DNA of 45,300 nt from Methyloprofundus sp. Lineage in GTDB: Bacteria; Pseudomonadota; Gammaproteobacteria; Methylococcales; Methylomonadaceae. Numbering within the stretch: position 1 is the stretch's first letter; each line of letters opens with the position of its first letter. The position numbers were made by a program, and so were the translations under genes. The stretch spans positions 1-45,300 of the forward strand of contig DUBW01000007.1 in assembly GCA_012960135.1 (NCBI GenBank), read 5' to 3'. The notes under the pieces are model-generated. The model ran no database searches. It worked only from the letters and a program-made list of their open reading frames with translations, and had not been told where the DNA came from. Positions 8,389 to 25,229 of this stretch are shown here, one piece after another.

Positions 8389-8516
8389 GAACCCCACTCA
8401 TTCTACTTTTTCCTAACGATACGCCAATACCTGTCAGACCGCAATAGACTTGAGTTAATTGGCAAGCAAATGAACTGTGAATAGTATGTTAGGAAATGAA
8501 TAAGAGAAAGAAATTT

Positions 8517-8871
8517 TGTAACGACTCAGTGAAGCTAAGTCGTGCAATGAAATTATAAAGCAAATCCAGCTAACTTCCGCTCAAAGACCCGCGTCATTGC
8601 CTGAGTTGTACTTAGACCTTGTTGACGGCCAATTGATAAATAAGCTCTGAGACGACAAAGTATCTAGGTGCCCTGGGTACTGAGAAAGCATCCCGTTCAC
8701 TGATTATTGGTCGTCCTATGCAGCCAATGCCGCTTAGCATTTATATTAATGCCTGTTTCATTGGCCAACCGTTGCGCTCGATACTCTGTCACTACCCTTG
8801 AAATATCCATATCAACAACGGGCTAAAACCCTATCAAGAACTATTTTATTTATTGACGCGGAGTCGTTACA
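8517..8871. mobile_element. Decayed element with 11-bp perfect terminal inverted repeats
   Basis: TGTAACGACTC at 8517-8527 is the exact reverse complement of GAGTCGTTACA at 8861-8871, bounding 355 bases. On the minus strand, about 8697-8805 reads VTEYRAQRLANETG-like before a stop, which recalls the region ahead of the zinc-finger part of IS66-type transposases. No intact ORF remains. This suggests a remnant of an insertion sequence or a derived miniature element; the IS66 link is tentative. Confidence 0.5.
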
Positions 8872-9079
8872 ATGTAATTTAAAAGAAGTACGTGCTTAGA
8901 CAACGCAAACCATGACTGATAGTATTGTGCTAATAATGACTAGCCTTGCTTCTATCGTGCGCCGTACTTTGATTGTTGAAGGTAATACTGGTTTTTCTTA
9001 TGTTGAGTTTGTCAGGATTTTTTTCAGTGAGATTGATAGCTTTTTGTAGCCTTGCCGTTTAAAAAGAGAGGGGTATATT

Positions 9080-10723
9080 ATGAATGAGAAAATTGCACAT
9101 AAAGCAGTTCTTATCTATCCGGAATTTGATACCCAGAATACTTTCTGGAGTTATGCGCAAAGCCTGAAAATGTATGCTCCCGCTAGCGAGTTCGGATTGC
9201 CCCAACGCTTATTGCCACCGCTGGGCTTAATGGGCCTGTTCAGCCATCTTAAGCCCTTTTATGACGAGCTATGCCTGATCGATAAAAATATCGACCCCAG
9301 GCCGATAAGTGAATTCATCGCTGATGCCGATCACGTTTATATAGGCGGGATGATGGCTCAGGAGCAAAGCCTGCTAAAGCTAGGGCTGGAAGTAAAAAAA
9401 GCCAGAAAAATTTTAATCGTTGGGGGTACGGCCATTAGCCAACAGTCACCCTTGATGCAGGTCGCTGATCACTTGCTGGAAAATGAGGCAGAGGGAGTTA
9501 TCGACGAATTATTAGCAGGGCTAAGCAAGGCTAACGCAAAAAAATATTACCAGGGTAGTTTTGTAGCAGCAGAGCATTTTTTCCAGCCAGACTATGCGGC
9601 AATTAATATGCAGAATTATGTGCATATGGCCGTACAAATTAGTCGTGGTTGTCCTGAACGCTGTGAGTTTTGTGATATTCCTTCCCGTTTCGGTAAAGCC
9701 TTCCGAGTAACGCCCTGGCAAAAAACCGAACAATCGTTTCAGCAGATGAAAGATTTAGGTTGGACGGGGCAGGTGTTTGTTGTTGATGATAATTTTATCG
9801 GTAACCCGCGAAAGGCGTTAGAAATGCTGAAAAATCTGTATCAAATCGGCGAGAAAATTGGCTATCATCATCCCAAATACACAGAACTGACCTTGCGCCT
9901 TGCCGATGAATCGCCAGTAATGGCAGAATTACGCCACTGGTTTCATAAGGCGAACTTTATCAATGGCTTTTATGGGGTAGAAACGCCAAACGAAGCGTCT
10001 TTGCTAGAAACAGACAAACGCCAGAATCTGCGTGGTGAGCGCAGCCTGGTCGAGAAATTAAGGTTTATATCCGAACAAACCGGTGCCGGGGTAATGATGG
10101 GTATGATCTATGGCTTTGATAATGATAGCGATGATTCGGTACAGGAATTTATTGACTTTGTGAATGCCAGTAATGCACCGATAGTAATGGCAGGGCTATT
10201 AAATGCCTTACCTTGCACTCCCTTAATCACCCGGATGCAGAAGCAAGGTCGTATGATTCAGACAAGCAGTGGCAACAACTCTGATGGCATTATTAATTTT
10301 ATTCCTTATAACTTCTCAGTGCAGCAGGCAGAGCAGAATTACTTGCTCATCCTTCAGGGTATTTATAATCCGCAAGTGTATTTTGCCCGGGTGATGAGAC
10401 ATCTGGAATTAATCGACCCTGAATTACAAAGTAATTACCGCGCGGGTAATAACTCCTTGGCTTATCTGATCAAGATTCTGACCAAAAAACATGCACTGAC
10501 GTATTGGCGGTATTTACCTGTAGCGCTGGCCTGTGCTAAAAGGCGTTGCGGTTTTAATACCCCTGGATATATGGCGATCGTGGCTGAGTTCTTTTCCCTT
10601 TGCGCACAATATACGCATTTTAGCAGTCAGGTAAGCGTACAACGAAAAAATATTGCAAGACGTGATTATACCGATACACAGATGGTTTCCTGGCGCGAGT
10701 TGCAAATGTCAGAAGTTGATTAA
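9080..10723 (+). CDS. B12-binding radical SAM protein (DUF4070-like)
   Basis: Predicted cobalamin- and 4Fe-4S/SAM-dependent enzyme. An N-terminal Rossmann-like B12-binding domain (about residues 8-150) lacks the classical DxHxxG histidine, as is common in this group. The radical SAM core follows, with a CxxxCxxC cluster motif in GCPERCEFCDIP (Cys191, Cys195, Cys198). The C-terminal third carries the DUF4070-like extension. The N-terminus (LIYPEFDTQNTFWSY) is typical of this uncharacterised subfamily and unlike the hopanoid C-3 methylase HpnR. A GAGAGGGG tract lies just before the ATG. It appears to be monocistronic. Reaction and substrate are unknown; related enzymes perform methylations or ring rearrangements. 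Confidence 0.85.
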   Translation: MNEKIAHKAVLIYPEFDTQNTFWSYAQSLKMYAPASEFGLPQRLLPPLGLMGLFSHLKPFYDELCLIDKNIDPRPISEFIADADHVYIGGMMAQEQSLLKLGLEVKKARKILIVGGTAISQQSPLMQVADHLLENEAEGVIDELLAGLSKANAKKYYQGSFVAAEHFFQPDYAAINMQNYVHMAVQISRGCPERCEFCDIPSRFGKAFRVTPWQKTEQSFQQMKDLGWTGQVFVVDDNFIGNPRKALEMLKNLYQIGEKIGYHHPKYTELTLRLADESPVMAELRHWFHKANFINGFYGVETPNEASLLETDKRQNLRGERSLVEKLRFISEQTGAGVMMGMIYGFDNDSDDSVQEFIDFVNASNAPIVMAGLLNALPCTPLITRMQKQGRMIQTSSGNNSDGIINFIPYNFSVQQAEQNYLLILQGIYNPQVYFARVMRHLELIDPELQSNYRAGNNSLAYLIKILTKKHALTYWRYLPVALACAKRRCGFNTPGYMAIVAEFFSLCAQYTHFSSQVSVQRKNIARRDYTDTQMVSWRELQMSEVD

Positions 10724-10794
10724 TACACAACAATAAATCACGAAAGAAACGAAGAACAGGAAAGGAACAAAAAACGATAAACTTGCCCCGAAAC

Positions 10795-10890
10795 GCTGCT
10801 TGGGAATACTTGGAGTAGCCGCTCTGCTGTGAGTGGTTCTGGTAAGCAGCGCTTACTTGTCATGCATTCCCAAACAGAGTTTGGGAATGC
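10795..10890. terminator. Composite hairpin region between convergent genes
   Basis: GCATTCCCAAAC (10864-10875) pairs perfectly with GTTTGGGAATGC (10879-10890) around a 3-base loop. An outer 7-bp repeat, GCTGCTT/AAGCAGC, spans about 10795-10849, and GGGAAT also recurs on its left. It separates the plus-strand radical SAM gene from the minus-strand kinase gene and may act as a bidirectional terminator, although no long T-run is present. Composite form suggests a repeat element. Confidence 0.5.
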
Positions 10891-10939
10891 GAAAACTTTC
10901 GTGACTTTTGTGGTTTAAATTACATTCAGAAAACTGTAC

Positions 10940-13900
10940 TCAAGATAATTTCTCCAGCATTGCTTGTGCAATATCAATCGCTTCATCATATTCGTATTGC
11001 TGTATCAGTTTTTCTAGTTTTTTAAGTTGCCCCGACTCTGCATTTAAACCGGTAAGCTCGGTAATTTCTTCCAGCATATCAACCGCATCGGCATCATCGT
11101 CGAGAAGCAATTCCAGCAATTTTTTATACAAAGGCAGTAGTGTTTCTGAACTCACTTTTTCAGTGCTTGCTGCGGTCGACTTTGGTGGTGCTTGTAGTGT
11201 TTTCAGACTTTCCAGTACCGGTGTTAAATTCGCTTCTACCCTGTTTAATAAATTCATTATCTGCTGGATATCCAGTTTGTCTAAACAAGCGAGTTCAAGG
11301 GCTGCTGCAGCTTTTTGTATTTCATGCGCGCCGATATTTCCGGCGACACCTTTCAAAGTATGGGCTACGCGGGTCGCTGCATTAGCATCATCGCTGGCCT
11401 GTGCCTGCTGAAATTTTTCACTAAAGTTTTGCTCGCTGTCCAGAAATTTAATGAGTAAGCGGCGGTATAGTTTTTTATTGCCCTGGGTGATAGCCAGACC
11501 CGCATCAGAATTTATACCGGTAAGTTGAGAGAGATCCAGTTCAGGCTGATTGCGTATTTGCAAAGTGCTGGCTTTAGTCTCTTCAGAATGACTTGCCGGA
11601 GATGCAGGTGTGATCCATTTAGCCATGGTGCAAAACATTTCTGCAACATTAATGGGCTTGCTGATATGATCATCCATGCCTGCTTGTTGCGCCTGTTCAA
11701 TATCTGTGGACATGGCATTGGCAGTCATGGCGATAATCGGTAGTTTTTTGCCTATTTCAAGCTTGCGGATAATTTCTGTTGCACTATAGCCATCCATAAT
11801 CGGCATCTGAATATCCATTAACACGCCATCAAAATCCTGTTGTTGTACTTTGTCGACGGCTTGCTGGCCGTTTTCAGCAAGTATCACATTAATGCCATTA
11901 TTTCCTAACAGCTCCAGTGCCAGTTCCTGATTAATGTCATTGTCTTCAACCAGTAACACTTTAGCGCCGCGCAAACGCTCGATCGACTCGCTAAAATCTT
12001 CCTGGCGTTCAACACGTCGTGAATTGGATGCTATCTCTCGGCCAAATGCACCCATGATGGTATCGAATAGATATGAAGCATTGGTTGGCTTGGTTAAGAA
12101 ACTCAGATGATCAATATCTTTGGCTCTTTCCGCTAATTCCTCCTTGCCATAAGCGGTTACCATGATAATGGTTGGAGCTTTGTCTAACTGGGGGCCTTCC
12201 TGAAGTTTGCGAATGGTCTCTACACCATCCATTTTTGGCATCTTCCAGTCCATGATAATCAGGTCATAAGGTTGTTGCTGCCTTTCTGCCTGCTCTACTT
12301 TCGCTATGGCTTCCAGACCAGAACTAACAGTTGTGGTGGTATAGCTTAATGAATCGAGCATACCAGACATGATTTCTCTGGAGCTTTTATTATCATCTAC
12401 AACCAATACATTCAGGTGTTCAAGCGTGTTTATCTGCAGGGGTTGTAGATGATCTTCTGCTTTGCCAAAGTTAGCCGTGAAGGAAAAGGTAGTCCCTTCG
12501 CCCGGAACGCTTTCTACCCAGATTTCGCCGTCCATCATTTTGGTTAGTTTTTTGCAGATTACGAGTCCTAGCCCGGTACCGCCAAATTTTCGGGTGGTGG
12601 AGCCATCTGCCTGGACAAAGGACTGGAATAATTTATTTTGTTGTTCCTCGGTCATACCTATACCGGTATCTCTGATCGAAAACTGGATTTTCGTGTGCTG
12701 TGCATCCGATTCCAGTACCTGGGTGGATAACACCACTTCACCTTGTTCGGTAAATTTAATGGCATTATTGCCCAGGTTAACCAGTATCTGTCCCAGGCGC
12801 AAAGGGTCGCCTTGTAATGCCATCGGCATATTGGGGGCTATATCAAATAACAGTTCCAGTCCACTTTCTTCGGCTTTTAAGCCTAGTAAATTGGCGAGGT
12901 TTTCCAGCACATCTTCAAAGCGGAAGTCGATGCTTTCCATATCCAGTTTGCCGGCTTCGATCTTGGAAAAATCGAGAATATCATTGATAATGCCCAGCAA
13001 TGCTTCCGCAGAGCGGTGAACTTTTTCGATATAGTTGCGCTGCTTGCGGTCTAAGTCGGTTTGTAATGCCAGATAGGACATGCCGATAACAGCATTCATC
13101 GGAGTGCGAATTTCGTGGCTCATATTAGCCAGAAAGTCCGATTTACTTTTATTGGCTTCTTCGGCAATATGTTGGGCAATTTCGGCTACTTGTTGCGCCT
13201 GCTTAAGCGCTGTAATATCGGTCAGTGAACCTGCGGTACGATAGGAATGTCCGGTTTTATTGCGCAGTGACATACCCCGGGCATGAAACCAGTGATACTC
13301 GCCACTTTTGGTTTGCAATCGATATTCGATATCATAGGGTACATCTTGCTCAAGATGCGAGGTAAAAGCGGTAAGGGTTGCTCCTCGGTCGTCAGCATGC
13401 AGAGCATCGCTCCAGGATTCTACAACACAGGGGAAGTCCTCTTCATTGTTATAGCCAAGCATGCCTCTAAAGCGCTCAGAATACCAGAATTCTCCGCTGC
13501 CAACATCAAAGTCCCATAAACCAACGCCACTCCCGGCAACAGTCAGGTCGAAGCGCTGCTCACTTTGTTGTAGTGCTAGTTCTGCCTGCTTACGTTCGGT
13601 GATGTCGATTAGAATACCAATCATTCCCGCAGGCTTGTCATCACCTAAAGTGAACGCTGTACGCCAGTAGATAATATCAAATGATTGTCCGCTATGATGG
13701 GTGATTGATATTTCTTTATGAGCGGAACCGCTTTCACTTTCCATGTCAGCATCCGCGAGCAAAAAAGCCTGTTTAGTCGCTTGCGTATAATAATCCAGGT
13801 TTGCGATGGGTCTGCTTAGATAGTCTTCCCTGCGTATATTAAAGAACTGCTCATAAGCTTTATTGCAGCTGCTAAACTCGAGCTGTTCATCAAATACGAA

Positions 13901-15901
13901 AATAGGGTTAGGAATAGCATCCAGTAGTGCTGTTTGGTAGGCCAGCATTTCGTTGCGCTCGATTTCCCTTAATCCTGCACGGCGTAAATAAAATGCTAGG
14001 ATGGTCGAAAGAATGAAGATCGCAACCGGTAATTGTAGATTATTTGAGCTCCACTCAGGATACAATTCAGAATTTGCAGATTTAGCAATAATTTCCCATT
14101 GCCTGTCAGCAAACTGCATGGTTTGTTTAGCCTGGTAAGTGCTCTGGCTTTTATCCAGCTGATTGGCTGTTTCTACTCTCGATTTACGGGGGTTATGCGA
14201 ATATAAAAATTGCTCGCCTGGTAAGGAGTCTATATCCAGAAATTCGATATCCAGGCCTGCAATCGATGTGTGCTGCGAAAGAATGGCTTCAATCATGGGC
14301 CCAATACCGATTATAGCTACTGCAAAACCCTTGAGTGATTGTTTGCGGTGTTCAATAGTCTCGGTAAGTGAGCCTTGTTTAAAAACAGGTAAGGAGACGA
14401 TAAAGTCATAGCTGTTCTTATCTTCCTGTAACCATTTAATTCGATGCGATGCTATTGGCGTATTGCTATCAATGGATTTCATCAGACCACTGAATTCTTG
14501 GTTATTACTACCCAGGTCAAAGCCAAGCGCTTTTATATTTGCTTGTAGGGGCTCTATATAATAAATGGGGTAATACCATTCTCTCTCTGCGGCGGAAATG
14601 ATTTTTCCCTGTTTATTAAGCTCAGCAAAAGCATAAGGTTTATTCAAGGTTTTAGAGGCTTGTTGCTCAAACTGATTACGCTGCTTTTCAGAGACCTTGG
14701 GTACCCACTCTAGTGCTTTGATACCTGGATATTGATGTGTTAGACGGTTGACTAATCGATAGAACTCCTTTCTATCTATATGTTCGGATGAATCAAAGCC
14801 AGCGCGTATGCTATACAAGGATTCCAGGTACGGCGTAATACCGTATTCAAATGATTTTACATGTGATTGTACGGCTGACTTGAACTTGTTATAAACAGTG
14901 AGTTGAAATTGATGATGCAACAGGCTGTATAATGAAAGCCCTAAAAAAAGTCCGGTTGCTAGTACCATCAGTGGTACATAAGTGGTTCTAACCGCGGTGC
15001 TTTTCTGCACATCCTGTAACAGCACAGAGCGGCTAATATAAACCAGAATTAGAGAAAGAACGGTGCCTAGGAAAAGCAGGCTATTACTGACTAATTCGGC
15101 AAAACTGCCATATTCAAACTCTTCCGGCGATTGGGCGATTAGTGCCTGCCAGAAAGCAAGTGTGATCGTTAACGAAGCGATTCCTATCGGAAGATACAGC
15201 CACTTTGGAAAGCCTTGGTAAAGCAATCTTTCCCGGTGCCAGGCGAGAGCAAAAAAGCCCAGGCCAAGAATAAAAAACCCCAGCGCAGTATGAATAGCCA
15301 TCTTGGTTAAACTGCCCCAGCCATAAGCTGTTTCCATGCCTGCGAGGTAGCCCGTAAAAGCAACGAAACCCAGTCCCAATATAATGATGCCTAGTGTTCC
15401 TAAGGTGCTGTTATTGTTGTCTTTATGTTTGAACAGAGTCGCCAGTACCAAGGCTAGGCCAGATAAAGCAAAACATAATGCTGTATTAGGCGCCATACGC
15501 CCAGGGGTTGAGGTCTCGACATCGACATAATGCTGCATAAACAACTGGTCTATGGATAAATCAATGCCTGCGATGTGTTCAATCAGGGTTGCACTGCCGA
15601 GTAAAACAGTTAAGCTTCCAAAAAACAGGGCAATCGGTAAACGACTGAAAGCCAGGGCAAGTAATCCCAGGCCTGCCATCACAAAGCCTAGCGCTGTGTT
15701 GTATTGCATCGGGACAAACGCCGGGTTCACCTGAATCAAATCCAGGGTGTGGGTGTACCAGCCGGTGAGCACCACTAGGCCGAGCACTAGGGATAGCGTG
15801 CTGGCTAATAGCGTGCCGGAAAATGACCAAGATTGCCTGGCGAGATCAGGTTCATTTTTTGCTTGTTGGATAGGCGTGTTTTTAGTTTGTTGCTTGAACA
15901 T
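10940..15901 (-). CDS. Giant hybrid histidine kinase (CHASE-PAS-PAS-HK-REC-REC-HPT)
   Basis: A membrane phosphorelay kinase of 1653 residues. An N-terminal block of about 8-10 membrane helices (to about residue 330) is followed by a CHASE-type extracytoplasmic sensor (about 350-600), a further helix (about 618-640), and two PAS domains (about 660-905). The HisKA domain has SHEIRTP with His929, then a HATPase domain with GTGLGL near 1106. Two receiver domains follow, with phospho-acceptors Asp1218 (MDWKMPKMDG) and Asp1363 (MDIQMPIMDG). An HPT domain has His1514 (AHTLKG). All phosphorelay residues are intact. The gene is divergent from a response regulator 301 bases away, its likely but unproven partner. 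Ligand unknown. Confidence 0.93.
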   Translation of the reverse strand: MFKQQTKNTPIQQAKNEPDLARQSWSFSGTLLASTLSLVLGLVVLTGWYTHTLDLIQVNPAFVPMQYNTALGFVMAGLGLLALAFSRLPIALFFGSLTVLLGSATLIEHIAGIDLSIDQLFMQHYVDVETSTPGRMAPNTALCFALSGLALVLATLFKHKDNNNSTLGTLGIIILGLGFVAFTGYLAGMETAYGWGSLTKMAIHTALGFFILGLGFFALAWHRERLLYQGFPKWLYLPIGIASLTITLAFWQALIAQSPEEFEYGSFAELVSNSLLFLGTVLSLILVYISRSVLLQDVQKSTAVRTTYVPLMVLATGLFLGLSLYSLLHHQFQLTVYNKFKSAVQSHVKSFEYGITPYLESLYSIRAGFDSSEHIDRKEFYRLVNRLTHQYPGIKALEWVPKVSEKQRNQFEQQASKTLNKPYAFAELNKQGKIISAAEREWYYPIYYIEPLQANIKALGFDLGSNNQEFSGLMKSIDSNTPIASHRIKWLQEDKNSYDFIVSLPVFKQGSLTETIEHRKQSLKGFAVAIIGIGPMIEAILSQHTSIAGLDIEFLDIDSLPGEQFLYSHNPRKSRVETANQLDKSQSTYQAKQTMQFADRQWEIIAKSANSELYPEWSSNNLQLPVAIFILSTILAFYLRRAGLREIERNEMLAYQTALLDAIPNPIFVFDEQLEFSSCNKAYEQFFNIRREDYLSRPIANLDYYTQATKQAFLLADADMESESGSAHKEISITHHSGQSFDIIYWRTAFTLGDDKPAGMIGILIDITERKQAELALQQSEQRFDLTVAGSGVGLWDFDVGSGEFWYSERFRGMLGYNNEEDFPCVVESWSDALHADDRGATLTAFTSHLEQDVPYDIEYRLQTKSGEYHWFHARGMSLRNKTGHSYRTAGSLTDITALKQAQQVAEIAQHIAEEANKSKSDFLANMSHEIRTPMNAVIGMSYLALQTDLDRKQRNYIEKVHRSAEALLGIINDILDFSKIEAGKLDMESIDFRFEDVLENLANLLGLKAEESGLELLFDIAPNMPMALQGDPLRLGQILVNLGNNAIKFTEQGEVVLSTQVLESDAQHTKIQFSIRDTGIGMTEEQQNKLFQSFVQADGSTTRKFGGTGLGLVICKKLTKMMDGEIWVESVPGEGTTFSFTANFGKAEDHLQPLQINTLEHLNVLVVDDNKSSREIMSGMLDSLSYTTTTVSSGLEAIAKVEQAERQQQPYDLIIMDWKMPKMDGVETIRKLQEGPQLDKAPTIIMVTAYGKEELAERAKDIDHLSFLTKPTNASYLFDTIMGAFGREIASNSRRVERQEDFSESIERLRGAKVLLVEDNDINQELALELLGNNGINVILAENGQQAVDKVQQQDFDGVLMDIQMPIMDGYSATEIIRKLEIGKKLPIIAMTANAMSTDIEQAQQAGMDDHISKPINVAEMFCTMAKWITPASPASHSEETKASTLQIRNQPELDLSQLTGINSDAGLAITQGNKKLYRRLLIKFLDSEQNFSEKFQQAQASDDANAATRVAHTLKGVAGNIGAHEIQKAAAALELACLDKLDIQQIMNLLNRVEANLTPVLESLKTLQAPPKSTAASTEKVSSETLLPLYKKLLELLLDDDADAVDMLEEITELTGLNAESGQLKKLEKLIQQYEYDEAIDIAQAMLEKLS

Positions 15902-16202
15902 TAATATTTCATCCTTTTTTGTTTATCCAAAACGCTGATGCATTACTCTAGCGATGTTCAAATGTTTTACTGGAGTGCAATAGCTAACACTATGGCACTC
16001 CAGTCTTTATGTCCATTCCCAGGTTGGTAGCCAAAATCCTCACAGTGACTGTTTAGAAAGTTTTTATCGCAACAGCCATCAGGTTATAATGAGACTAACG
16101 AGAAAAGCCTAATATTGAAATCTAAACCTATTCTAATATGACTGTCTTAAATATTAAAGATTCTGCACTTGGCAATGATATTTACTCAGGGCGGAACCAG
16201 TC
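15902..16202. promoter_or_regulatory. Divergent control region between kinase and response regulator
   Basis: This 301-base gap separates two divergent signalling genes and must hold both promoters. The only clear structure is the perfect 10-bp hairpin at 15969-16004. I see no confident -35/-10 pair. A GGGCGG tract about 12 bases before the regulator ATG is its probable ribosome binding site. Confidence 0.5.
15969..16004. repeat. Perfect 10-bp stem hairpin with TAGCT...CTATG loop (copy E of hairpin family)
   Basis: ACTGGAGTGC (15969-15978) pairs with GCACTCCAGT (15995-16004). The loop, AATAGCTAACACTATG, resembles the loop of the hairpin at 17684-17722 and more loosely the loops of copies A-D. 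It sits between divergent genes, so it is not a simple terminator; it may be a repeat or an operator. Confidence 0.6.
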
Positions 16203-17132
16203 ATGAGTGAAGCACAAAATATCATCCTAATCGTGGATGACACGCCAACTAATATTCAATTGCTCAATAGTATGTTGCGCGAGCAATATAAAGTGAAAGC
16301 TGCAACTAGTGGTGAAAAGGCGCTAAAAATTGCCCGTACAGAACCACAGCCAGATATTATTCTGCTGGATATTATGATGCCTGAAATGGACGGCTATGAA
16401 GTCTGCAGGCAATTAAAGTCATCGCCTCTCACGGCGGATATACCGGTTATTTTTATTACCGCTAAAACGGCAGTGGAGGATGAGCAGCTAGGATTTTCTC
16501 TTGGCTCTGTTGATTATATTACCAAACCGTTTAACCCTGATATAGTCAAAACCAGAGTTAAAACACAACTGGAAATTTATAATCAGCAACGAAAGCTGCA
16601 TGAAGAAAATAAACACTTGAAGCGGCGGGTGTCTAATGAATTCAGTGATTATATAGAACCTGAAATAGTCAGTATTTTAGAAATGGGTGAAGGTGATGGC
16701 ACTGAATTTAAATCGACCCTGCGCTGGAATTTGCATACCGATAAGGCTGATAAAAAAATCGAAAATGCTTGTCTGAAGACGGTGGCTGCTTTTCTTAATA
16801 GTGATAGTGGTGTGTTACTTGTCGGCGTTGATGATAGTGGGCATGTGCTGGGTCTGGAGCAAGATGGTTTTGCCAACGAAGACAAATTGTTATTGCATTG
16901 GAATAGCCTGTTAAAAGCACATGTAGGCATAGAGTTTATGCAGCTTATTCGCTCCCAGGTGAATGGCCTCGGTGGGAAACGCGTGTTGTTGGTACAGTGT
17001 CTGCGCTCGTCCAAGCCGGTATTTTTTCGCCGTGATAATGACGAGATATTTTATGTGCGCACCGGTAATGGAAGCAATCAGCTTAAACCCAGCGAAGTGA
17101 TTGCCTATCTTGACCAGCGCGAGAGCGAATAG
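16203..17132 (+). CDS. Response regulator with AlbA_2 (Schlafen-like) output domain
   Basis: A 309-residue two-domain protein. The receiver domain (about residues 6-125) has the acidic pair Asp12/Asp13, phospho-acceptor Asp56 in LLDIMMPEMDG, and Lys108 in YITKPF. A short helical linker (about 125-155) leads to an AlbA_2/divergent AAA-4-like domain (about 160-305) with GTEFKS, NSDSGVLLVGVDDSG and a late YVRTGNGS motif. AlbA_2 domains are associated with nucleic-acid binding in Schlafen-type proteins, so phosphorylation may control DNA or RNA interaction; this is inference. The same output domain recurs at 32986-33822 behind membrane helices. Divergent from the hybrid kinase; probably its partner. 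Confidence 0.85.
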   Translation: MSEAQNIILIVDDTPTNIQLLNSMLREQYKVKAATSGEKALKIARTEPQPDIILLDIMMPEMDGYEVCRQLKSSPLTADIPVIFITAKTAVEDEQLGFSLGSVDYITKPFNPDIVKTRVKTQLEIYNQQRKLHEENKHLKRRVSNEFSDYIEPEIVSILEMGEGDGTEFKSTLRWNLHTDKADKKIENACLKTVAAFLNSDSGVLLVGVDDSGHVLGLEQDGFANEDKLLLHWNSLLKAHVGIEFMQLIRSQVNGLGGKRVLLVQCLRSSKPVFFRRDNDEIFYVRTGNGSNQLKPSEVIAYLDQRESE

Positions 17133-17155
17133 CACTGCTTGCTAAAGGGAGTTGT

Positions 17156-17587
17156 GTGAAACAACAGCAAATGAGACTCTCCTATATTACCTTAGCGGTG
17201 ACTGATTTCCCTAGTATGTTCGTTTTCTACCAGGCACTAGGCCTTCCCGTGCATAAGCTGGGCAAGGATCCTGAGCAGCCTTTTGCAATGTTTGCCATGG
17301 GTAGCCTGATACTGGCTTTATATCCTAAAGCCTTATTGGCTAAACAGGCGGGTTGCGCCATCGAGGGAGATAATAGCGCATTGTCTTTGTCACTCAATGT
17401 GGCTGATAAAAACCAGGTGAATATTACGCTGGAACTTGCCTTAGCGCATGGCGCCCGTATTACTCGAACTCCCTTTCAACCCGAATGGGGGGGCTATTGT
17501 GGATATTTTAAAGACCCGGAAGCTAATTTATGGGAGGTCGTCTGGCATGAAAAATACCACCACCAGCCGGAGTTTGCTAATCTTTGA
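17156..17587 (+). CDS. VOC-superfamily (glyoxalase/bleomycin-resistance-like) protein
   Basis: A single 143-residue vicinal-oxygen-chelate module: the N-terminal half has RLSYITLAVTDFPSMFVFYQ and the C-terminal half ends in GYCGYFKDPEANLWEVVWH, the usual metal-site region with a terminal Glu. VOC proteins include glyoxalases, dioxygenases and antibiotic-binding proteins, so substrate is open. The start is GTG at 17156 with GGGAG close upstream; an in-frame ATG at 17171 is an alternative and begins at the conserved domain. It follows the response regulator by 23 bases, likely cotranscribed. Confidence 0.8.
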   Translation: MKQQQMRLSYITLAVTDFPSMFVFYQALGLPVHKLGKDPEQPFAMFAMGSLILALYPKALLAKQAGCAIEGDNSALSLSLNVADKNQVNITLELALAHGARITRTPFQPEWGGYCGYFKDPEANLWEVVWHEKYHHQPEFANL

Positions 17588-17781: not shown

Positions 17782-18702
17782 TTACTTTCCGTCAAAAAAC
17801 AGCTTTTCTTCCAGAGTTTTACCCTGACTAAGCTGGCGGTATTGCCAGTTATTGTCGTTAATACACGTAATGATATTTAGGTCCATACTGGGTTGTATTT
17901 CAGGGTTATATTCGATGATAAACTCATTTTTTTGTGGGTTAGACACTCGAGAAATACCCGCTATGCTATTAAATTTAGCCTGCACATCGGGGGCCGAGCA
18001 AGGTTCCATTTGCAAGGTAAGAAAGCGGGTAGGCTTATTATTTTCCGAGGCATTTAATTGCATAGTACTCATAATACCTTTGTCCAAAAGTAATATCTGC
18101 TGGCATAGGCGGCCTAGTTCAGCTAGGTCGTGAGAACTGATAATAAAGGTTGTTACGAGTGAAAGCTCGGTAATAATGGTGCGAATTTTACGCATATTTA
18201 CAGGATCTAAACCAGCAGTAGGTTCATCCAGAAGTATTAGTTTCGGCTTGCCGATTAAAGCTTGAGCAATCGCGGCCCTTTTTGCCATGCCGTGGCTAAG
18301 TGCACTTGGCTTTTCCTTTAAAACATCTTTCAGTGCAACTGCTTCGAGCACTCTGCTAGTTTCATGCTTAGCTTGTTGTGTGCTTAGGCCTTGTAAACGC
18401 GCATAGAAATACAGCTGTTCACCTATAGAAAAGGCTGGGTCTAGTTGTGCATCCTGTGGCAAAGCTGAGACTCTACCGCTGAGTGCAGATGCGCCAGGCT
18501 TATGTCCGAATAGGGTTACATCGCCTGAAGCACTTCGCATAAAACCACATAGAATATTGAGTAAAGTGCTTTTACCCGCCCCATTTGGGCCGACTAAGCC
18601 AATAGGTTCACCTGATTCACAAGTAAAGCTGATATTACTCAGTGCTGTTTTGCCAGAATAGCTATGGCTAAGGTTATGGCATTTTATAATCGGAGCATTC
18701 AT
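17782..18702 (-). CDS. ABC transporter ATP-binding protein (ABC-2/exporter type)
   Basis: The ATPase subunit of an ABC-2-type transporter, 306 residues. Walker A is GPNGAGKST (38-46), the signature region is LSHGMAKRAAIAQ (a variant of LSGGQ in which the second glycine is Met), and Walker B is LILLDEPTAGLD, followed by an H-loop in IISSHDL. The C-terminal ~85 residues form a small accessory region. Its start overlaps the stop of the permease gene by 4 bases. Such pairs normally export lipids, peptides or drugs. It is divergent from the carbamoyltransferase/diiron gene set, which makes export of their product a natural hypothesis, though untested. Confidence 0.9.
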   Translation of the reverse strand: MNAPIIKCHNLSHSYSGKTALSNISFTCESGEPIGLVGPNGAGKSTLLNILCGFMRSASGDVTLFGHKPGASALSGRVSALPQDAQLDPAFSIGEQLYFYARLQGLSTQQAKHETSRVLEAVALKDVLKEKPSALSHGMAKRAAIAQALIGKPKLILLDEPTAGLDPVNMRKIRTIITELSLVTTFIISSHDLAELGRLCQQILLLDKGIMSTMQLNASENNKPTRFLTLQMEPCSAPDVQAKFNSIAGISRVSNPQKNEFIIEYNPEIQPSMDLNIITCINDNNWQYRQLSQGKTLEEKLFFDGK

Positions 18703-19520
18703 AAGCTTTGTCTATGTATAATCCAGCGACCTATGGATAGTAGTATTATGGTCTGGAGTAAGGGAATATATGCTAGTTGCAGCGTTTGCCATTCTGCTAA
18801 TTGAGACAGGTTTGATATTTGATAACCAGGAATCAGGAGCTTCAAACTATTCAATGCAGGCAGGTAAGCGGAGAAGATACTTATAATCCAGGCCAAAAAA
18901 GTCCAGATTAAGATGGCCCAGCTTGTCGCTTGCCGGGCAGACTGAACAGTTGCGGACAGTGCCGCCATCATCGCTGTAAAAGGCAACAAGGCAATGACTA
19001 AACTAAGAAATATTGCCGAAGCACTGTTGAATGCGACCGGCAGCAGTGTTGTATCACGAAAAGCGATCAACGCTACGGTACTTAATAAGCTTGCGAGAAT
19101 TAATATAGCCTGGGTCAGCATAATTCCGGAAAATCGACCAAAGAATAGACTGCCTCTACTGACTCGTAAGCATACAAAGCGTAAAGTGCCTCTGTTTCTA
19201 TCTGAACAAGTTTGATCTGCAGAAGTTACCACGGTTAGTAAAGGAAATATAACCAGAGAGAAATGCCAGTACACGCCAAGTTCAGGTATTCTCCAGTTTA
19301 GTAATGAACCAAAGCCAATAAATTGAAAGAAACTGTTACCTTCAGGTGTGTTCTGTTGCTGGCCTAGAAAATCTGAAGAAAAACGAATCGGGTAAAACAA
19401 TATTAAATACCAGATGAAGGCAAAAGTGATCATATATAGAAGGCCTTTTCGGGTAGCAAAAAACCTTTTTAGTTCAAATTGGCAGATCAATGAGGTGTGC
19501 TTAAGAAAGCTAGGGATCAT
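18699..19520 (-). CDS. ABC-2-type permease subunit
   Basis: Membrane partner of the adjacent ATPase. The first helix follows a cytoplasmic amphipathic stretch (FELKRFFATRKGLLYMI), typical of ABC-2 permeases, and about six hydrophobic segments can be seen. I choose the ATG at 19520 because AGGAAA lies 4 bases upstream of it and the protein then begins at the conserved amphipathic region; an upstream in-frame ATG at 19589 would add 23 polar residues with a poorer ribosome site. The 4-base overlap with the ATPase gene indicates coupling. The substrate is unknown. Confidence 0.82.
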   Translation of the reverse strand: MIPSFLKHTSLICQFELKRFFATRKGLLYMITFAFIWYLILFYPIRFSSDFLGQQQNTPEGNSFFQFIGFGSLLNWRIPELGVYWHFSLVIFPLLTVVTSADQTCSDRNRGTLRFVCLRVSRGSLFFGRFSGIMLTQAILILASLLSTVALIAFRDTTLLPVAFNSASAIFLSLVIALLPFTAMMAALSATVQSARQATSWAILIWTFLAWIISIFSAYLPALNSLKLLIPGYQISNLSQLAEWQTLQLAYIPLLQTIILLSIGRWIIHRQSL

Positions 19521-19864
19521 CGTCTTTCCTGTCAATAGATATGATGAAGTAAGGGTCGAGGGTTTAACAATTTCCGGATCTTGAATCATAACGTGTTGTT
19601 TATCCTTTTTCAGCGTTGTGCAATAGTTGCGTAGCTAGCTATGCAGCTATTGCTTCTTTCCAGTATCAAGCGGGGGCTAGGCTTTGAATACCAACATACC
19701 CCCTGTTCTTGTTGCCAAACTTATTTTGTTTGCGTTCCTCAGTAATGTGGTTTATTAAAGCTTTGTAAAAATGAGCCGGATGGATTGTTTTCAATGATGA
19801 ACTCAGAAACCTGAATATGATATTATGCGAGCTAGCAGTATATTCTACACTTCCAGGTTATGCA
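19521..19864. promoter_or_regulatory. Divergent intergenic region of the carbamoyltransferase/ABC cluster
   Basis: Both halves of the cluster are transcribed outward from this 344-base region, so a shared control point is likely. It contains the 7-bp hairpin at 19620-19653 (copy D). I cannot place a confident sigma70 promoter or a named operator. Confidence 0.45.
19620..19653. repeat. Intergenic hairpin, copy D of the TAGCTATGC family
   Basis: GCAATAG (19620-19626) pairs with CTATTGC (19647-19653). The loop contains GTAGCTAGCTATGC, nearly identical to the loop of copy B, yet the stem sequence is different. The 3' module of copies A-C is not obvious here. Confidence 0.7.
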
Positions 19865-21613
19865 GTGAAAAAATATTATATCGGCCTCTCAATTACCTAC
19901 CATGATCCGGCATTGGCAATTATTAATGATCAAGGCGAAGTGCTATTTGCCGAAGCGACGGAGCGCTACTTACAGAATAAGCGTGCGCTAAATTGCCCTG
20001 CCGATCCTTTGCTACGCGTTGAGGAATTGCTACAACAATATTGCCCGGACCCGGGTGAGTTTGTGATTGTCAGCAACTGGCGCAAAAAACGGCCTTTATA
20101 TGAAAATATTATTGCCAGGCTTGGTTGTTTAACGGCATCTGGCTTAAACAAAACAGGCATAAAAAAACTACGCTCGCCGCTGAATAATTACCAGTTGCAT
20201 CATATGATTGCTAGTCAGCGTAATAATATCGACAGTGCGGGTATAAATCTGGCGCGTATTATTGCTGAGTATTATCCCGACTGTACACTTTCCTTTGTGG
20301 ATTACCACCACCATTTAACTCATGCTGCGACCGCTTGTTACAGTAGTCCGTTTGCTGAATCGGCTTGTGCAGTGATTGACTCTTTTGGTGAGAATGGCTC
20401 GATGGGCTTTTATCATTTCAAGGATCAGCGCCTAGACTGCTTATATGAGACCCGGGGCACCGGGAGTATTGGCTTTTATTATATGAAAGTCACCGAGCTA
20501 TGCGGCTTTGATTGGCTTAAAGGTGAAGAATGGAAGGTGATGGGGTTGGCGTCTTATGGTCAGCTTAACGATGAACTTTATGAGTTATTAAAAACCACGA
20601 TTACAGTTGAGGGGTTTGACTGCCTACATCAATCGAGCAAGCTATTTTCTAGTATTTCCGCCCTGGATAAATTCAAGCGCCGCGATCAGGATCCTATTAT
20701 TCAGGCTGCTGATTTAGCTTTTACGGGGCAATATTTTTTTGCTGAATTGATGACCAGTTTACTGCAGCATTTACAGCAAAAAACCGGCAGTAGGAATCTG
20801 GCATTAGGAGGAGGTTGCGCCTTAAATTCCGTTTTTAATGGACAGATAAAAGAGCGCACAGATTTTACCCAAGTGTTTATTCCTTCCGCGCCTGCCGATG
20901 ACGGCACTGCGCTGGGGGCGGCCTGGCTTGCCTTGCATCATGATCAGCCTGGTTTAGAGATTGCTAATTCGACAATTAAATCTGCTTATTTAGGTTCAAC
21001 TATTAGCGATAACGCGGTTAAGAACTTAATACACTACAATCGCGCACTGGATATCCAGCATTTACCTGACAGCATTTGTGCAGCTACCGCTGAATTACTG
21101 GCACAGGGTAAGCTCATCGGCTGGATACAGGGTAGGGCAGAGTTTGGTCCGCGCGCATTGGGTAATCGCTCTATTCTGGCAGATCCCCGGTTTGCTACGA
21201 CCAAAGACAAGATTAACCAACAAGTGAAATTCCGAGAGAGCTTTCGTCCGTTTGCTCCTTCAGTATTACACGAATGTGCGGATGAATTTTTTGTAGATTA
21301 TCATGAGTCGCCCTATATGGATAAGACTCTACGTATTCGAAAGTCAATGCAGGAGAGTGTAGCGGGAGTCTGTCATGTTGATGGTACCGGAAGGTTGCAG
21401 ACGGTTAAAGAGCAATGGAATCCGCGCTATTATCAATTGATTAAGGCTTTTTATCAGCAGACTCAGATTCCGATGCTTTTGAACACCAGCTTTAATGTGA
21501 TGGGTAAGCCCCTGGTTCATTCTCTGGATGATGCGCTCGCGGTATTTTTATCTACCGGCCTGGATGCGCTGGTGGTCAATGATTACCTAATTTGCAAGCC
21601 GCGCAATGACTAA
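19865..21613 (+). CDS. O-carbamoyltransferase, NodU/CmcH family
   Basis: Transfers a carbamoyl group from carbamoyl phosphate, through an ATP-dependent carbamoyl-adenylate, to a substrate hydroxyl. The Kae1-like N-terminal domain opens with YYIGLSITYHDPALAI and carries the metal-binding HHLTHA (about 149-154) and a later VIDSFGENGS segment. The C-terminal domain shows GRAEFGPRALGNRSI (about 423-437) and NTSFNVMGKPLV (from about 540). All hallmark motifs are intact. I choose GTG at 19865, where homologues would begin, with CAGG just upstream; an in-frame ATG at 19817 adds 16 residues. The stop overlaps the next start by 8 bases. The acceptor is unknown. Confidence 0.88.
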   Translation: MKKYYIGLSITYHDPALAIINDQGEVLFAEATERYLQNKRALNCPADPLLRVEELLQQYCPDPGEFVIVSNWRKKRPLYENIIARLGCLTASGLNKTGIKKLRSPLNNYQLHHMIASQRNNIDSAGINLARIIAEYYPDCTLSFVDYHHHLTHAATACYSSPFAESACAVIDSFGENGSMGFYHFKDQRLDCLYETRGTGSIGFYYMKVTELCGFDWLKGEEWKVMGLASYGQLNDELYELLKTTITVEGFDCLHQSSKLFSSISALDKFKRRDQDPIIQAADLAFTGQYFFAELMTSLLQHLQQKTGSRNLALGGGCALNSVFNGQIKERTDFTQVFIPSAPADDGTALGAAWLALHHDQPGLEIANSTIKSAYLGSTISDNAVKNLIHYNRALDIQHLPDSICAATAELLAQGKLIGWIQGRAEFGPRALGNRSILADPRFATTKDKINQQVKFRESFRPFAPSVLHECADEFFVDYHESPYMDKTLRIRKSMQESVAGVCHVDGTGRLQTVKEQWNPRYYQLIKAFYQQTQIPMLLNTSFNVMGKPLVHSLDDALAVFLSTGLDALVVNDYLICKPRND

Positions 21614-23780
21614 GCCTGAACATGCTTTTGACCCCGCATTGGGCTTGCAATTTGCTCGGCAATTAGAGGCTAGTCAAAGTCTGGGCAACAGTTCTGCTAT
21701 TGATATTGACGCTCGGCAGTTGTTTTATCAATTAAATCAGTCAGGGAATAATCAGGATGTCATGCCGGCTGCGCATCATTTTGTTAGCCAGCAATTAAAT
21801 AAGGCTAGTCAGGCCTATATGTCTTTGCAAGCGACTAACTATAGTCAAGAATCGCTTGCTAGTCTGCAAGCGCCTGCAATCCCACCTTTAACCGAAGGTT
21901 TACAGGGTGAGAGTGATTTTTATCAGGGTTTAAATCAATTGGCAGCGGTTCATTTAACACAGCCCTGCTGGTTAGAAAATATCTCGCAGATTGGCAGTAG
22001 CCAGGCAGATACTACGGTAACTGTAATGGCAGTTTACTTACAGCTAACCGGGGCAGAGCAGCAAGGGGCTAATGCTCAACAGTTGTACCGTGCGTTGTTG
22101 CTGAGTAGCGGGCGTAACACGCCGATGCTACATAGCTTTGAATATAGCCAGCAAACAGGGGTGCTAGCGGAGGTCTTTAATTTTGCCAGTATTCAGCTTG
22201 CTTTAGCGCGATTTCCCCGAGTGTTATTTGCTGAAATTCTTGGTTTTACCCTGGCTTATTGTCAAGCGCCAGTTCTACTTGAGATTTGTTTTCCAGATCA
22301 TCTCCTGGCGCGCTCCTTATTTAACCTGCATAAGCAGCAAGCGCAACAATGTGCGCCAGTGTTACACACTTGTATAGCGAACTACCTGGGTTTATTTTCT
22401 CAGCAAAGCGAGCAATTATGGCAGCGGATATGCGATGGTTTCTGGCTTTATCATACCCAGATGCAGAGTTGCAGGGATCGTCTGCAACATGTTTTACAAG
22501 CGCCGGTATCTGCGCACCAGGGCTTTGCAGATTTACTGCAACAAAAAGCAGCGGCGGCTATGGGCCATCATCAGAAGGTTGCTATCCAGGGTAAGACGCT
22601 GGATGATTGGTTTGCCGGGTTGCCAGAAAATAGCGGTCAGTTTCTGCAAGCATTAATACAATCAGGCTATGTAAATCAGAAAAACCCAGCAGACAGTCCG
22701 TTACTGAAGCTATTTGATTTTAAAGGACCTATGTTTGGTGTGCTGGATCAGGCTGAATTGGACATTGTTAAAAACTGGTTAGGTAGCGAACTTAATGAGC
22801 ATACAACGGAGGTTGTCAAAGAACCGGAAAAATCATTTGCAAATGCACCGGTACAAATACCAGTCATCAATAAGGCGCAAAAAAAATATGCGAAATTATG
22901 TAATAGGGAACTGTACTATTATCTGGTAAATGCGGATTTATTTCCTGATGTGTTGCCCACTGCACGAGCAAAAGTGCAGTATAGTTTGCAAGCATGTCGC
23001 TGGTTGAATCCATTGCCTTTTAAGCATTATAGTCATCAGCGCTTTGATCATTATATTGATACCATTTATCAACAGGAAGTGGATGCTTATCAGCCATTGC
23101 AGGGTAAGCCTAAGATTTCCAGAGAAGCTTATGTCTGGGGGCTGGAGCAGATAGCACCAATGATCCTGATTGACGGTTGCTGGCTACAAAATAGCCTGGC
23201 TTTGAAAAACCTTAACCCTGAAATTTGTGAAATCTTATTTAATATTTACTGTGATGAAATCGGTAATGGCCGATTGGCGCAAAACCATCCGCATATCTTT
23301 CAGCAATTACTAGAAAGTATTTCTATACAGGTGCCGCCCGTTTATAGTGAGGCATTTGTTAAGTCCCCGGGTTTTATCAATAGCGCGTTTGATCTGCCGG
23401 TTTATATGCTGTCCCTGTCCAGTTTTAGCGTAGAGTTTTTACCTGAATTACTGGGTTTGAATATGGCTATCGAATTAAGCGGCCTGGGTAAGAGTTATAT
23501 GAGTCTGGTCGATGACTGGAATTACTGGGGGATCGATCCGAGTATTGCTAATATTCATATCTCCATTGATAATGCAGCATCGGGGCATACCTTTCTGGCA
23601 AAAAAAGCGATTAAGATTTATATGGATGAGGTTTTAAATAATTCAGCTGACCGGGTAGTAGACCAACACTGGCGGCGAATTTATAGTGGTTATACTTCAT
23701 TGCGATTTGTCGGTAGGCGTTTTAAATTGGCCTTGCCGATTGGGTATTTATGGAATAAATTCAGCGTAAAAAATAGGTAA
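21606..23780 (+). CDS. Two-domain haem-oxygenase-like diiron (HDO) protein
   Basis: An iron-containing redox enzyme of the haem-oxygenase-like fold, 724 residues, made of two related halves. The C-terminal half (about 500-680) keeps a full set of candidate metal ligands: YCDEIGNG (Glu551), His561/His563, LPELLG (Glu614), AIELSGLG (Glu623), and HISIDNAASGH (His651, Asp655, His661). The N-terminal half (about 95-245) has matching landmarks (PCWLEN, FAEILGF) but lacks the second Glu and the HxxxDxxxxxH segment. A GPMFGVLDQAELDIVKNW stretch (374-391) closes the first half. HDO enzymes perform N-oxygenation, desaturation or C-C cleavage. Coupled to the carbamoyltransferase by overlap. Confidence 0.78.
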   Translation: MTKPEHAFDPALGLQFARQLEASQSLGNSSAIDIDARQLFYQLNQSGNNQDVMPAAHHFVSQQLNKASQAYMSLQATNYSQESLASLQAPAIPPLTEGLQGESDFYQGLNQLAAVHLTQPCWLENISQIGSSQADTTVTVMAVYLQLTGAEQQGANAQQLYRALLLSSGRNTPMLHSFEYSQQTGVLAEVFNFASIQLALARFPRVLFAEILGFTLAYCQAPVLLEICFPDHLLARSLFNLHKQQAQQCAPVLHTCIANYLGLFSQQSEQLWQRICDGFWLYHTQMQSCRDRLQHVLQAPVSAHQGFADLLQQKAAAAMGHHQKVAIQGKTLDDWFAGLPENSGQFLQALIQSGYVNQKNPADSPLLKLFDFKGPMFGVLDQAELDIVKNWLGSELNEHTTEVVKEPEKSFANAPVQIPVINKAQKKYAKLCNRELYYYLVNADLFPDVLPTARAKVQYSLQACRWLNPLPFKHYSHQRFDHYIDTIYQQEVDAYQPLQGKPKISREAYVWGLEQIAPMILIDGCWLQNSLALKNLNPEICEILFNIYCDEIGNGRLAQNHPHIFQQLLESISIQVPPVYSEAFVKSPGFINSAFDLPVYMLSLSSFSVEFLPELLGLNMAIELSGLGKSYMSLVDDWNYWGIDPSIANIHISIDNAASGHTFLAKKAIKIYMDEVLNNSADRVVDQHWRRIYSGYTSLRFVGRRFKLALPIGYLWNKFSVKNR

Positions 23781-23845
23781 TAAAAAATACCCTGATAAAA
23801 TAAATAACAGTAATTCATAATAATAAAAATAATCTGAGGTCGGCA

Positions 23846-24904
23846 ATGTTTGACCATTTAAAATATTTAAGCAGCTTCTTTTTACCCGGCTGTGTACTCT
23901 GGTTTTTATATACAGGCCCTCATAGTGCTATTTCGGCGCTGGTCTGGACTATCCCTCTGTGGGCCCTGATTGTGCTCGACTGGTTCAGTCCTAAAGTTAA
24001 TATCAATAAGAAAAAGCAGCCCGTTTCTGCAGGGTTTTATGATGCTATTTTATATGCTCTGGCTATCCTGCAATTTTTGATTATCGGTTTACTACTTCAT
24101 TATGCCAGCCAGTTGCAATGGAGTTCTGTGACAGAAATTAGCCGCTCTATTGTCAATCTAGCCGTTTTAAGAATTCTGATCGGTACCACGTCAGGTAGTT
24201 CTGCGCTTATCGTCGCGCATGAATTAATCCATCGTAGTCAGCGGCACAAACAGATATTAGGAAAAATGCTGTTGTATACCGTCTGTTATGAACATTTTGT
24301 TATCGCCCATTTACAGGGACATCATTTAAGTGTGGCAACGCCGGAAGATATTGCGACCGCGAAGCTAGACGAAAATTTTTCCAGCTATTGGCAAAGAGTG
24401 ATTGTAGAACACTTTAAGTATGCCTGGGACTTTGAGCTTAAGCGTCTATGTCTAGAGCATACACCTGTATATCATTATCAGATGTTAGCCAATTCGGTAT
24501 TCAGAGGAGTGATTATTGAAGTGACTCTAGTAGTGTTGATACTTATTGTTTTTGGCTGGGCTGCGGCATTTATTTTTCTTTATCAGGCGCTCGCAGGTGT
24601 GCGCTTACTAGAGAGCATTAATTATTATCAGCATTGGGGGTTGGAGGAGGGTAGAGCAGATCAAATGCTGGCCTGGGTCAACCAATCCAGTTTGTCTGAG
24701 TATGCTTTAGTAGGTCTGACGAACCATGTCGGTCATCACCAGCAAGCGCATTGTTCATTTTATGAAATTCCTTATTCTGACCAGGGTCCTATAATGCCGT
24801 ATGGGTATTTTGTGACTAATCTCTGGGTCAAATTGAATAACGCATCCTATCGTCGTGTCTCTGCAGGCATATTGAAAAATTATCTACATCAGGCAAGAAT
24901 ATGA
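23846..24904 (+). CDS. AlkB-like membrane diiron oxygenase (fatty acid desaturase superfamily)
   Basis: An integral-membrane non-haem diiron hydroxylase or desaturase of 352 residues. The histidine boxes resemble alkane 1-monooxygenase: HELIHR (125-130), EHFVIAHLQGHH (149-160), NYYQHWG (259-265) and NHVGHH (293-298). The fourth box departs from the AlkB LxRHSDHH consensus, so alkane hydroxylation should not be assumed. Hydrophobic segments occur before box 1 and between boxes 2 and 3. GAGG lies about 10 bases upstream of the ATG. It is third in the plus-strand half of the cluster, and its stop overlaps an ATG by 4 bases (ATGA). A plausible role is oxidation of a lipid-like substrate for carbamoylation. 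Confidence 0.85.
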   Translation: MFDHLKYLSSFFLPGCVLWFLYTGPHSAISALVWTIPLWALIVLDWFSPKVNINKKKQPVSAGFYDAILYALAILQFLIIGLLLHYASQLQWSSVTEISRSIVNLAVLRILIGTTSGSSALIVAHELIHRSQRHKQILGKMLLYTVCYEHFVIAHLQGHHLSVATPEDIATAKLDENFSSYWQRVIVEHFKYAWDFELKRLCLEHTPVYHYQMLANSVFRGVIIEVTLVVLILIVFGWAAAFIFLYQALAGVRLLESINYYQHWGLEEGRADQMLAWVNQSSLSEYALVGLTNHVGHHQQAHCSFYEIPYSDQGPIMPYGYFVTNLWVKLNNASYRRVSAGILKNYLHQARI

Positions 24905-25032
24905 AGCTCACGTATATTCCCCCCGCTTTGACGCGGCCTGATTTACTTTCCGGACAGGTTAGCCAGTTTGGCACTAAGCTGGGTATCTGGGCTGATCTGG
25001 CCGCTTGTGTAACCATTGGCTATAGTGTCTGA
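24901..25032 (+). pseudogene. 43-codon ORF coupled to the AlkB-like gene, possibly a truncated cluster gene
   Basis: An ATG at 24901 overlaps the AlkB-like stop in an ATGA arrangement typical of coupled operon genes. The ORF encodes 43 residues (starting MKLTYIPPALTRPDLLSG) and ends in TGA at 25030-25032. Open stretches resume after the stop, but no long frame follows. I do not recognise the sequence. It may be the 5' remnant of a lost fourth cluster gene, a real small protein, or chance. Confidence 0.35.
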
Positions 25033-25229
25033 TGGCTATGGCGAGGCACTGTTCACCGTGAAGATCTTTCTCTGTATTTATTTATGCGCTAGCAGCGATA
25101 GAAGAAGTGGCTATCGCCTTATGTCTGGATAGACCGCAATCGAATGCTGGAACACTCTGGCACGTGCTAAAAAACTTTTATGAAGCACATAAGCACGAAA
25201 TGTAATATCAGTTGCTTGATTTTCTTCAA

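Follow-up and report, generated by a model that had tools for sequence, protein, structure and literature searches.

What might a methanotroph make with a carbamoyltransferase, a haem-oxygenase-like protein and a relative of alkane monooxygenase encoded in a row? The question is raised by a stretch of 45,300 nucleotides from Methyloprofundus sp. (assembly GCA_012960135.1, contig DUBW01000007.1, positions 1 to 45,300; hereafter the window), which is contig C7 of a genome of 2.50 Mb in 92 contigs. In it, genes for a NodU/CmcH-type carbamoyltransferase (CTase), a haem-oxygenase-like diiron protein (HDO) and an AlkB-like membrane oxygenase (AlkB), which together we call the trio, stand divergently from a gene pair for an ATP-binding cassette (ABC) transporter. 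A sequence-only reading had taken these five genes for a candidate undescribed pathway, in which a hydroxyl installed by AlkB is carbamoylated by the CTase and the product leaves the cell through the ABC pair. The open-reading-frame list and a Pfam scan confirm the underlying observation as a whole, with all five genes at the positions given for them and correctly assigned to their families; the 8-base overlap between the CTase and HDO genes and the 65-base gap between those for HDO and AlkB are both exact on re-measurement. The three genes at the center of the question are as follows:

19865..21613, + strand: CTase of a long-branched clade, 582 amino acids from GTG (598 from the ATG at 19817); Carbam_trans_N and Carbam_trans_C (Pfam)
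21606..23780, + strand: two-half HDO, 724 amino acids, the C-terminal half with candidate metal ligands and the N-terminal half degenerate; Haem_oxygenas_2 at residues 513-694
23846..24904, + strand: AlkB-like membrane non-haem diiron oxygenase, 352 amino acids; FA_desaturase (Pfam), matching 8f6t by sequence and fold

Co-conservation of the three genes

The genes for CTase, HDO and AlkB occur, rearrange and go missing together far beyond chance, and they form a real unit that is widely conserved among methanotrophs. In a sample of 61 genomes, comprising that of the window and 60 relatives, HDO is present in 33, and the CTase adjoins it in every one of these (the window and 32 of 32 relatives). 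AlkB is full-length, with 34-100% identity, in 31 of the 33 HDO-positive genomes, and none of the 28 HDO-negative ones has such a copy (Fisher p = 2e-15, in a test that ignores kinship), and the remaining two positive genomes, G007 and G036, hold AlkB as fragments. The HDO-negative genomes include one with an AlkB fragment (G005) and three with AlkB-like matches at 24-30% identity (G042, G053 and G056), an AlkB of the trio type being recognized by this difference in identity and, mostly, by position, not by an AlkB tree. The association is also seen within the genus, where AlkB is present in 6 of 7 genomes with HDO as against 0 of 11 without it (Fisher p = 4e-4, kinship again ignored). The check named for the proposed pathway was conservation of the three-enzyme set together with the ABC pair across genomes, and for the three enzymes it is borne out.

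The arrangement of the unit emerges from a scan of genome contigs that took in the best 80 of 131 confirmed relatives, split by record names and synteny into 66 Methylococcales loci and 14 others. The CTase lies directly before HDO at 58 of the 66 loci, and two gene orders are seen: AlkB follows HDO on the same strand at 39 loci and stands divergently before the CTase at 20. At the seven loci where AlkB is not seen, a contig end or decay explains four (L071, L093, L095 and L119), whereas L120, L123 and L140 have full flanks; none of the 14 loci outside Methylococcales, L115 and L122 among them, has it. In six genomes a partner absent beside HDO is nevertheless present elsewhere—the CTase is unlinked in G061, G062, G063 and G066, and AlkB in G065 (at 40% identity), G052 (on a separate contig) and G066, where it lies together with the CTase on a different contig from HDO. 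At L069, L070 and L073, which have no CTase beside HDO, the genomes hold it elsewhere at 74-75% identity, joined to a radical S-adenosylmethionine (radical-SAM) gene. Neither partner occurs within 10 kb of HDO at L120 and L123; one of these two genomes has both of them together elsewhere, and in the other neither was found. The pairwise protein distances correlate across the trio (r = 0.93-0.95 in 48 complete trios, with 0 of 999 permutations as high), a correlation that can equally arise from shared species history.

The closest HDO homologues come from Methyloprofundus, Methylomonas, Methylobacter, Crenothrix and other Methylococcales, i.e., type I methanotrophs; the genome of the window carries pmoA, and the Texas strain of Methylococcus capsulatus carries the trio. 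In a class-wide sample of 274 gammaproteobacterial genomes, a strong CTase match (E up to 1e-150) is confined to four: that of the window, a second member of its order and two genomes from a single other family, with 48-52% identity apart from the window's own. All four carry pmoA, as does G027, which is without a CTase match, these five being the only class genomes in which pmoA was tested. The two from the other family, a Chromatiales USCg isolate and a gammaproteobacterium, are those behind L122 and L115, as identical coordinates and scores show, and we take USCg to be an atmospheric-methane-oxidizing group. Both have an HDO in addition to their strong CTase match, and a search of these non-Methylococcales draft genomes for AlkB gave no match. 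A Nitrosomonas marina genome with an ammonia monooxygenase gene has a distant HDO only, with no match to the CTase or AlkB. Viral contigs gave no match to a single-protein query; relatives do occur in 30 plasmid records, every one below 60% identity, and seven of the plasmid regions were examined.

Several individual copies have features of their own. G026 has a second HDO (L055) with neither CTase nor AlkB in its stretch. In a mussel symbiont, the methanotrophic gill symbiont of Bathymodiolus platifrons (G007, L048, on the same contig as L095), the trio is breaking down: HDO is in pieces with stops, AlkB is a stub and a phosphatidyltransferase gene is shortened. A repeat protein with many SGVxKYL-like units is encoded before HDO at L069:3717-5294, L070:481-2022 and L073:241-1701; it belongs to the lineage with the displaced CTase, and its L069 copy is without a Pfam match. 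In G065 (L163:3652-10110), pmoA lies 2.9 kb from the unlinked AlkB, which is immediately followed by another radical-SAM gene, DUF4070-like by eye.

Folds and candidate active sites

Each of the three enzymes has invariant candidate catalytic residues, with roles putatively assigned from relatives. In the CTase, both Pfam domains score over the cut-off, and an HxxxH-x18-D motif (H165, H169 and D188) is invariant in 48 sequences together with many other residues; in TobZ, the residues of this motif presumably form the metal site. The two domains, the motif and other invariant residues are shared with the O-carbamoyltransferases of the TobZ, GdmN and NovN type, from which the CTase differs in that the alignment to the N-terminal Pfam model starts only at position 128 and in the distant clade to which it belongs. 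In a tree of 44 chosen rows, built by a quick method and containing no TobZ, GdmN, NovN or GvgF row, a branch of 3.91 changes per site (SH-aLRT 100) lies between this clade and all other CTases, among them gvg-like sequences from Acinetobacter, Agrobacterium and others and a second CTase from the genome of the window. The L122 sequence, the only one of the L122 and L115 pair in the tree, falls inside the long-branched clade. The second CTase, a more conventional one, is encoded on contig C44 (L001).

The HDO had been described as a two-domain protein. It does have two helical halves, but alignments inspected by eye indicate that the full candidate metal-ligand set is kept only in the C-terminal one. 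There E551, H561, E614, E623, H651, D655 and H661 are invariant in 40 HDO sequences, whereas the N-terminal half has E210 and G213, likely counterparts of E614 and G617, and, again by eye, no counterparts of the others. The haem-oxygenase-like helical fold is supported by Pfam and by an AlphaFold model (predicted local distance difference test score, pLDDT, 90.1). When Foldseek is run with this model, the N-oxygenases HrmI, SznF and RohS appear in the first 18 rows, ahead of CADD and PqqC, with marginal E-values and a probability of 1.00. They are the nearest solved folds to the model, from which the HDO differs by its additional degenerate N-terminal half; phmmer finds no solved-structure relative of the HDO up to E 0.1. 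In the accessible part of a 2026 review, the ligands of SznF are given as 3H/4C, one glutamate being additional (PMC13108848), and the invariant HDO residues could, as aligned, form a similar set; the histidines and carboxylates invariant in the 40 sequences are numerous enough for either 3H/3C or 3H/4C. Likewise, the ligand positions E143 and H153 of the HDO DtpC are 10 apart in the excerpted account (PMC13232832), as are E551 and H561 here. A further point of comparison is AzsE of the azaserine pathway, which has a haem-oxygenase-like domain near its C-terminus (residues 528-706) and is 27% identical to GvgC; it belongs to a nonribosomal peptide synthetase pathway, a CTase is absent from the portion of the gene table covered, and its activity is not demonstrated in that portion of the source (PMC10445470). 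As far as the available sections go, a mangotoxin paper (PMC13185094) offers general HDO chemistry only and a paper on diazo compounds (PMC13061610) deals chiefly with a ferritin-like enzyme. A haem oxygenase named in the accessible text of a methanotroph transcriptome study (PMC11072679) could not be tied to this HDO gene.

The AlkB-like protein matches the alkane monooxygenase 8f6t over 313 residues (7.3e-27, 24% identity), and its model (pLDDT 94.1) matches the same structure by fold (7.8e-14, TM 0.78). Because of these two matches we regard it as an AlkB rather than a generic desaturase, and 8f6t and 8sbb are the only structural matches to the model at E <0.001. Ten histidines are invariant in 30 AlkB sequences, certain of which we take to be the iron ligands. 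The fold and the invariant histidines are held in common with alkane 1-monooxygenase AlkB (8f6t, 8sbb), from which the trio protein is set apart by its 24% identity and by the company of a CTase and an HDO. The usual substrates of AlkB-fold enzymes are hydrophobic chains.

Genes beside the trio

The following neighboring features of the window bear on whether the pathway has further members:

17782..18702, - strand: ABC ATPase, ABC_tran (Pfam); a neighbor, judged outside the pathway
18699..19520, - strand: ABC-2 permease, ABC2_membrane_2 (Pfam); a neighbor, judged outside the pathway
19521..19864, unstranded: divergent intergenic region of 344 bases, from permease start to CTase start; this pairing only in the window, G010 and G006
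24946..25175, + strand: remnant of a CDP-alcohol phosphatidyltransferase gene, in two tblastn pieces; an open frame at the same place in G010 and G006
9080..10723, + strand: B12-binding-type radical-SAM protein (DUF4070), 547 amino acids; Radical_SAM and DUF4070 (Pfam)

The ABC pair is a neighbor of the trio and not a conserved exporter of its product. The permease is found in 17 of the 61 genomes and shows no association with HDO (10 of 33 HDO-positive genomes versus 7 of 28 HDO-negative ones; Fisher p = 0.78), and it adjoins the trio in three genomes only, those of the window, G010 and G006. At 13 other places where the permease occurs no neighbor recurs in more than three, the 17th genome, G014, having been left out as a contig-edge fragment. 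A dedicated-exporter role for the ABC pair was accordingly rejected, as its co-occurrence with the trio enzymes fails. The control region between the two gene sets does measure 344 bases if the CTase begins at GTG 19865, a start favored by its homologues, and the permease at ATG 19520; with the longest open reading frames it shrinks to 227 bases.

Two other partners, both of which adjoin the trio in relatives, had been overlooked. In several relatives the gene immediately upstream of the CTase encodes a DUF4070 radical-SAM protein (12 of the 80 scanned loci), and the one immediately downstream of AlkB a CDP-alcohol phosphatidyltransferase (7 of the 80). In one branch the two belong to the trio's gene row. 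In the window, the radical-SAM gene is ~9 kb from the trio, and its product is 75% identical to the upstream neighbor of the CTase in L039. Near-full-length versions at no less than 65% identity occur in 9 of the 61 genomes, all HDO-positive, leaving 24 HDO-positive genomes without one; the HDO-negative G001 has short decayed pieces. Of the 190 residues of the phosphatidyltransferase, the remnant in the window retains 59-102 and 155-190, as tblastn pieces with identities of 59% and 78%, and open frames are found in L036 and L047. Beyond these five families even the most frequent gene cluster is found at no more than 8 of 120 loci, a set that counts some genomes twice. At ~17600 in the window, a left block of genes (4539-17587), which lie together on contig C1 of the near relative G010, meets a right block found on its contig C2. 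The blocks being apart in G010, the window joins them, either by a rearrangement or by an assembly join.

What the trio may make

A CTase and a haem-oxygenase-2 protein are also found together in the gvg cluster of Pseudomonas fluorescens WH6, where the NodU-type CTase GvgF and GvgC, which has a haem-oxygenase-2 domain, belong to the genes for 4-formylaminooxyvinylglycine (FVG); both are listed as required, and their chemistry is unassigned in the accessible text (PMC8067088). Clusters of this kind are described, in the part available, as widespread in bacteria, including Acinetobacter, and mostly uncharacterized (PMC8064604), and we find HDO-LysE-CTase-SGNH rows without AlkB in Acinetobacter and Agrobacterium records. 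As CTase-HDO pairs recur without AlkB beside LysE and SGNH genes, the two enzymes probably act in sequence, and by analogy the recurring pair suggests that HDO acts on the CTase product. In contrast to the trio loci, the 12 gvg genes tabulated hold no AlkB, radical-SAM or CDP-alcohol gene, and gvg has its own LysE exporters, SGNH-type esterase, aminotransferase and formyltransferase (PMC8067088, as excerpted). The trio CTase also stands in a separate clade from the gvg-like ones, a comparison that did not include the GvgF and GvgC sequences. Tblastn searches with the LysE and SGNH proteins of those Acinetobacter and Agrobacterium rows gave matches at L113 and L134 only of the 80 loci and none at L001-L022, the window's own locus (L003) included, the whole window not having been searched. 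The trio thus falls outside the gvg-like group by its CTase clade and by SGNH and LysE, and may, by analogy, work alike.

The reading that we put forward, possible though short of probable, is that gammaproteobacterial methanotrophs have a pathway of three to five enzymes comprising carbamoylation, carbamate N-oxygenation and membrane tailoring. The CTase would carbamoylate an alcohol of some widely available metabolite, whereupon the diiron C-terminal domain of HDO would N-oxygenate the carbamate nitrogen to give an N-hydroxycarbamate, perhaps rearranging to an aminooxy group; it is the nearest folds to the HDO model that suggest N-oxygenation. Within the membrane AlkB would act on the hydrophobic part, hydroxylating or desaturating it either afterwards or at the same time. 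We infer that it is a Methylococcales addition acting in or at the membrane, and that the radical-SAM protein and phosphatidyltransferase are a lineage-specific extension that would further modify the product in certain lineages and may link it to a phospholipid. The membrane fold of AlkB and the neighboring CDP-alcohol phosphatidyltransferase gene favor a lipid substrate, which the gvg-like relatives, being concerned with an amino acid, do not.

Several points weigh against this pathway. The N-oxygenase matches of the HDO model are no more than marginal, with E 1.7e-3 at best and a TM, by query length, that does not exceed 0.30, and the fold does not fix which reaction is performed; the CTase branch of 3.9 changes per site is long enough that its reaction too may have changed. 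Being present in 33 of 61 genomes, the trio is too patchy to be essential to methanotrophy. The draft genomes G064 and G067 yielded no CTase, and G067 no AlkB either; and in a planctomycete whose HDO locus has neither partner, the genome contains an AlkB-like match of 32% at another place.

Could the trio instead make a small soluble amino acid resembling FVG, an oxyvinylglycine, with the CTase and HDO acting as GvgF and GvgC and AlkB desaturating or hydroxylating a side chain? The joint requirement for GvgC and GvgF (PMC8067088, in the text available), the many bacteria with gvg-like clusters (PMC8064604, likewise) and the Acinetobacter and Agrobacterium rows speak for it. It is made unlikely by the confinement of LysE and SGNH matches to two loci and by the very great distance of the trio CTase clade from the gvg-like CTases used. 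An AlkB-fold enzyme would, moreover, ordinarily be expected on a hydrophobic chain. A hydrophobic candidate is offered by the bacteriohopanepolyols (BHPs), since methylcarbamate-BHPs have been tentatively reported in type I methanotrophs (PMC5100885, accessible part): AlkB or another enzyme would hydroxylate the side chain, and the CTase and HDO would provide carbamate-type ends such as those. Squalene-hopene-cyclase-family matches do occur in all 33 HDO-positive genomes, but they are also present in 21 of the 28 HDO-negative ones, and the genome of the window and G006 (themselves only 90% and 66% complete) have only a weaker match (E ~1e-39, frames of ~750 amino acids), whereas most relatives add one near 1e-110. 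With such matches in 54 of 61 genomes, their presence was discarded as an uninformative discriminator, and we hold a BHP substrate to be rather improbable.

Of the model with which the locus was first read, the co-conservation of the three enzymes stands and the exporter falls. The divergent ABC/trio layout in the window, G010 and G006 speaks in its favor; set against this are the independence of the permease from HDO and two genomes, G070 and G073, with CTase and HDO and no AlkB detected. AlkB as the necessary source of the hydroxyl is weakened because the genomes of L122 and L115 have CTase and HDO with no AlkB match. The full sequence, from hydroxyl to carbamate to export through the ABC pair, is very improbable. 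That the genes are chance neighbors with no joint function is hardly credible: such an account is contradicted by their co-occurrence, by the two gene orders, by the joint absences and by the split rows whose parts persist in the genome.

No description of the trio as a pathway was found among the papers listed in literature searches that covered few subscription papers; the words carbamoyl, desaturase and heme oxygenase are absent from the accessible part of a paper on methanotroph secondary metabolites (PMC11964084). As a long shot, many gammaproteobacterial methanotrophs, along with the two pmoA-bearing CTase genomes outside the order, might make an N-oxygenated carbamate (an N-hydroxycarbamate or aminooxy compound), anchored to the membrane in Methylococcales, which would bind a metal, e.g., copper for particulate methane monooxygenase, or capture formaldehyde or hydroxylamine from methane or ammonia oxidation. 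If this is true, carbamate N-oxygenation would have been put to a methanotroph-specific use. The genes are few and hence amenable to single deletions, and a culturable methanotroph could reveal the purpose of the CTase-HDO pairing, which FVG-type clusters also show but do not explain. The trio hints that the organisms controlling methane release have a metabolite or membrane lipid that has been overlooked.

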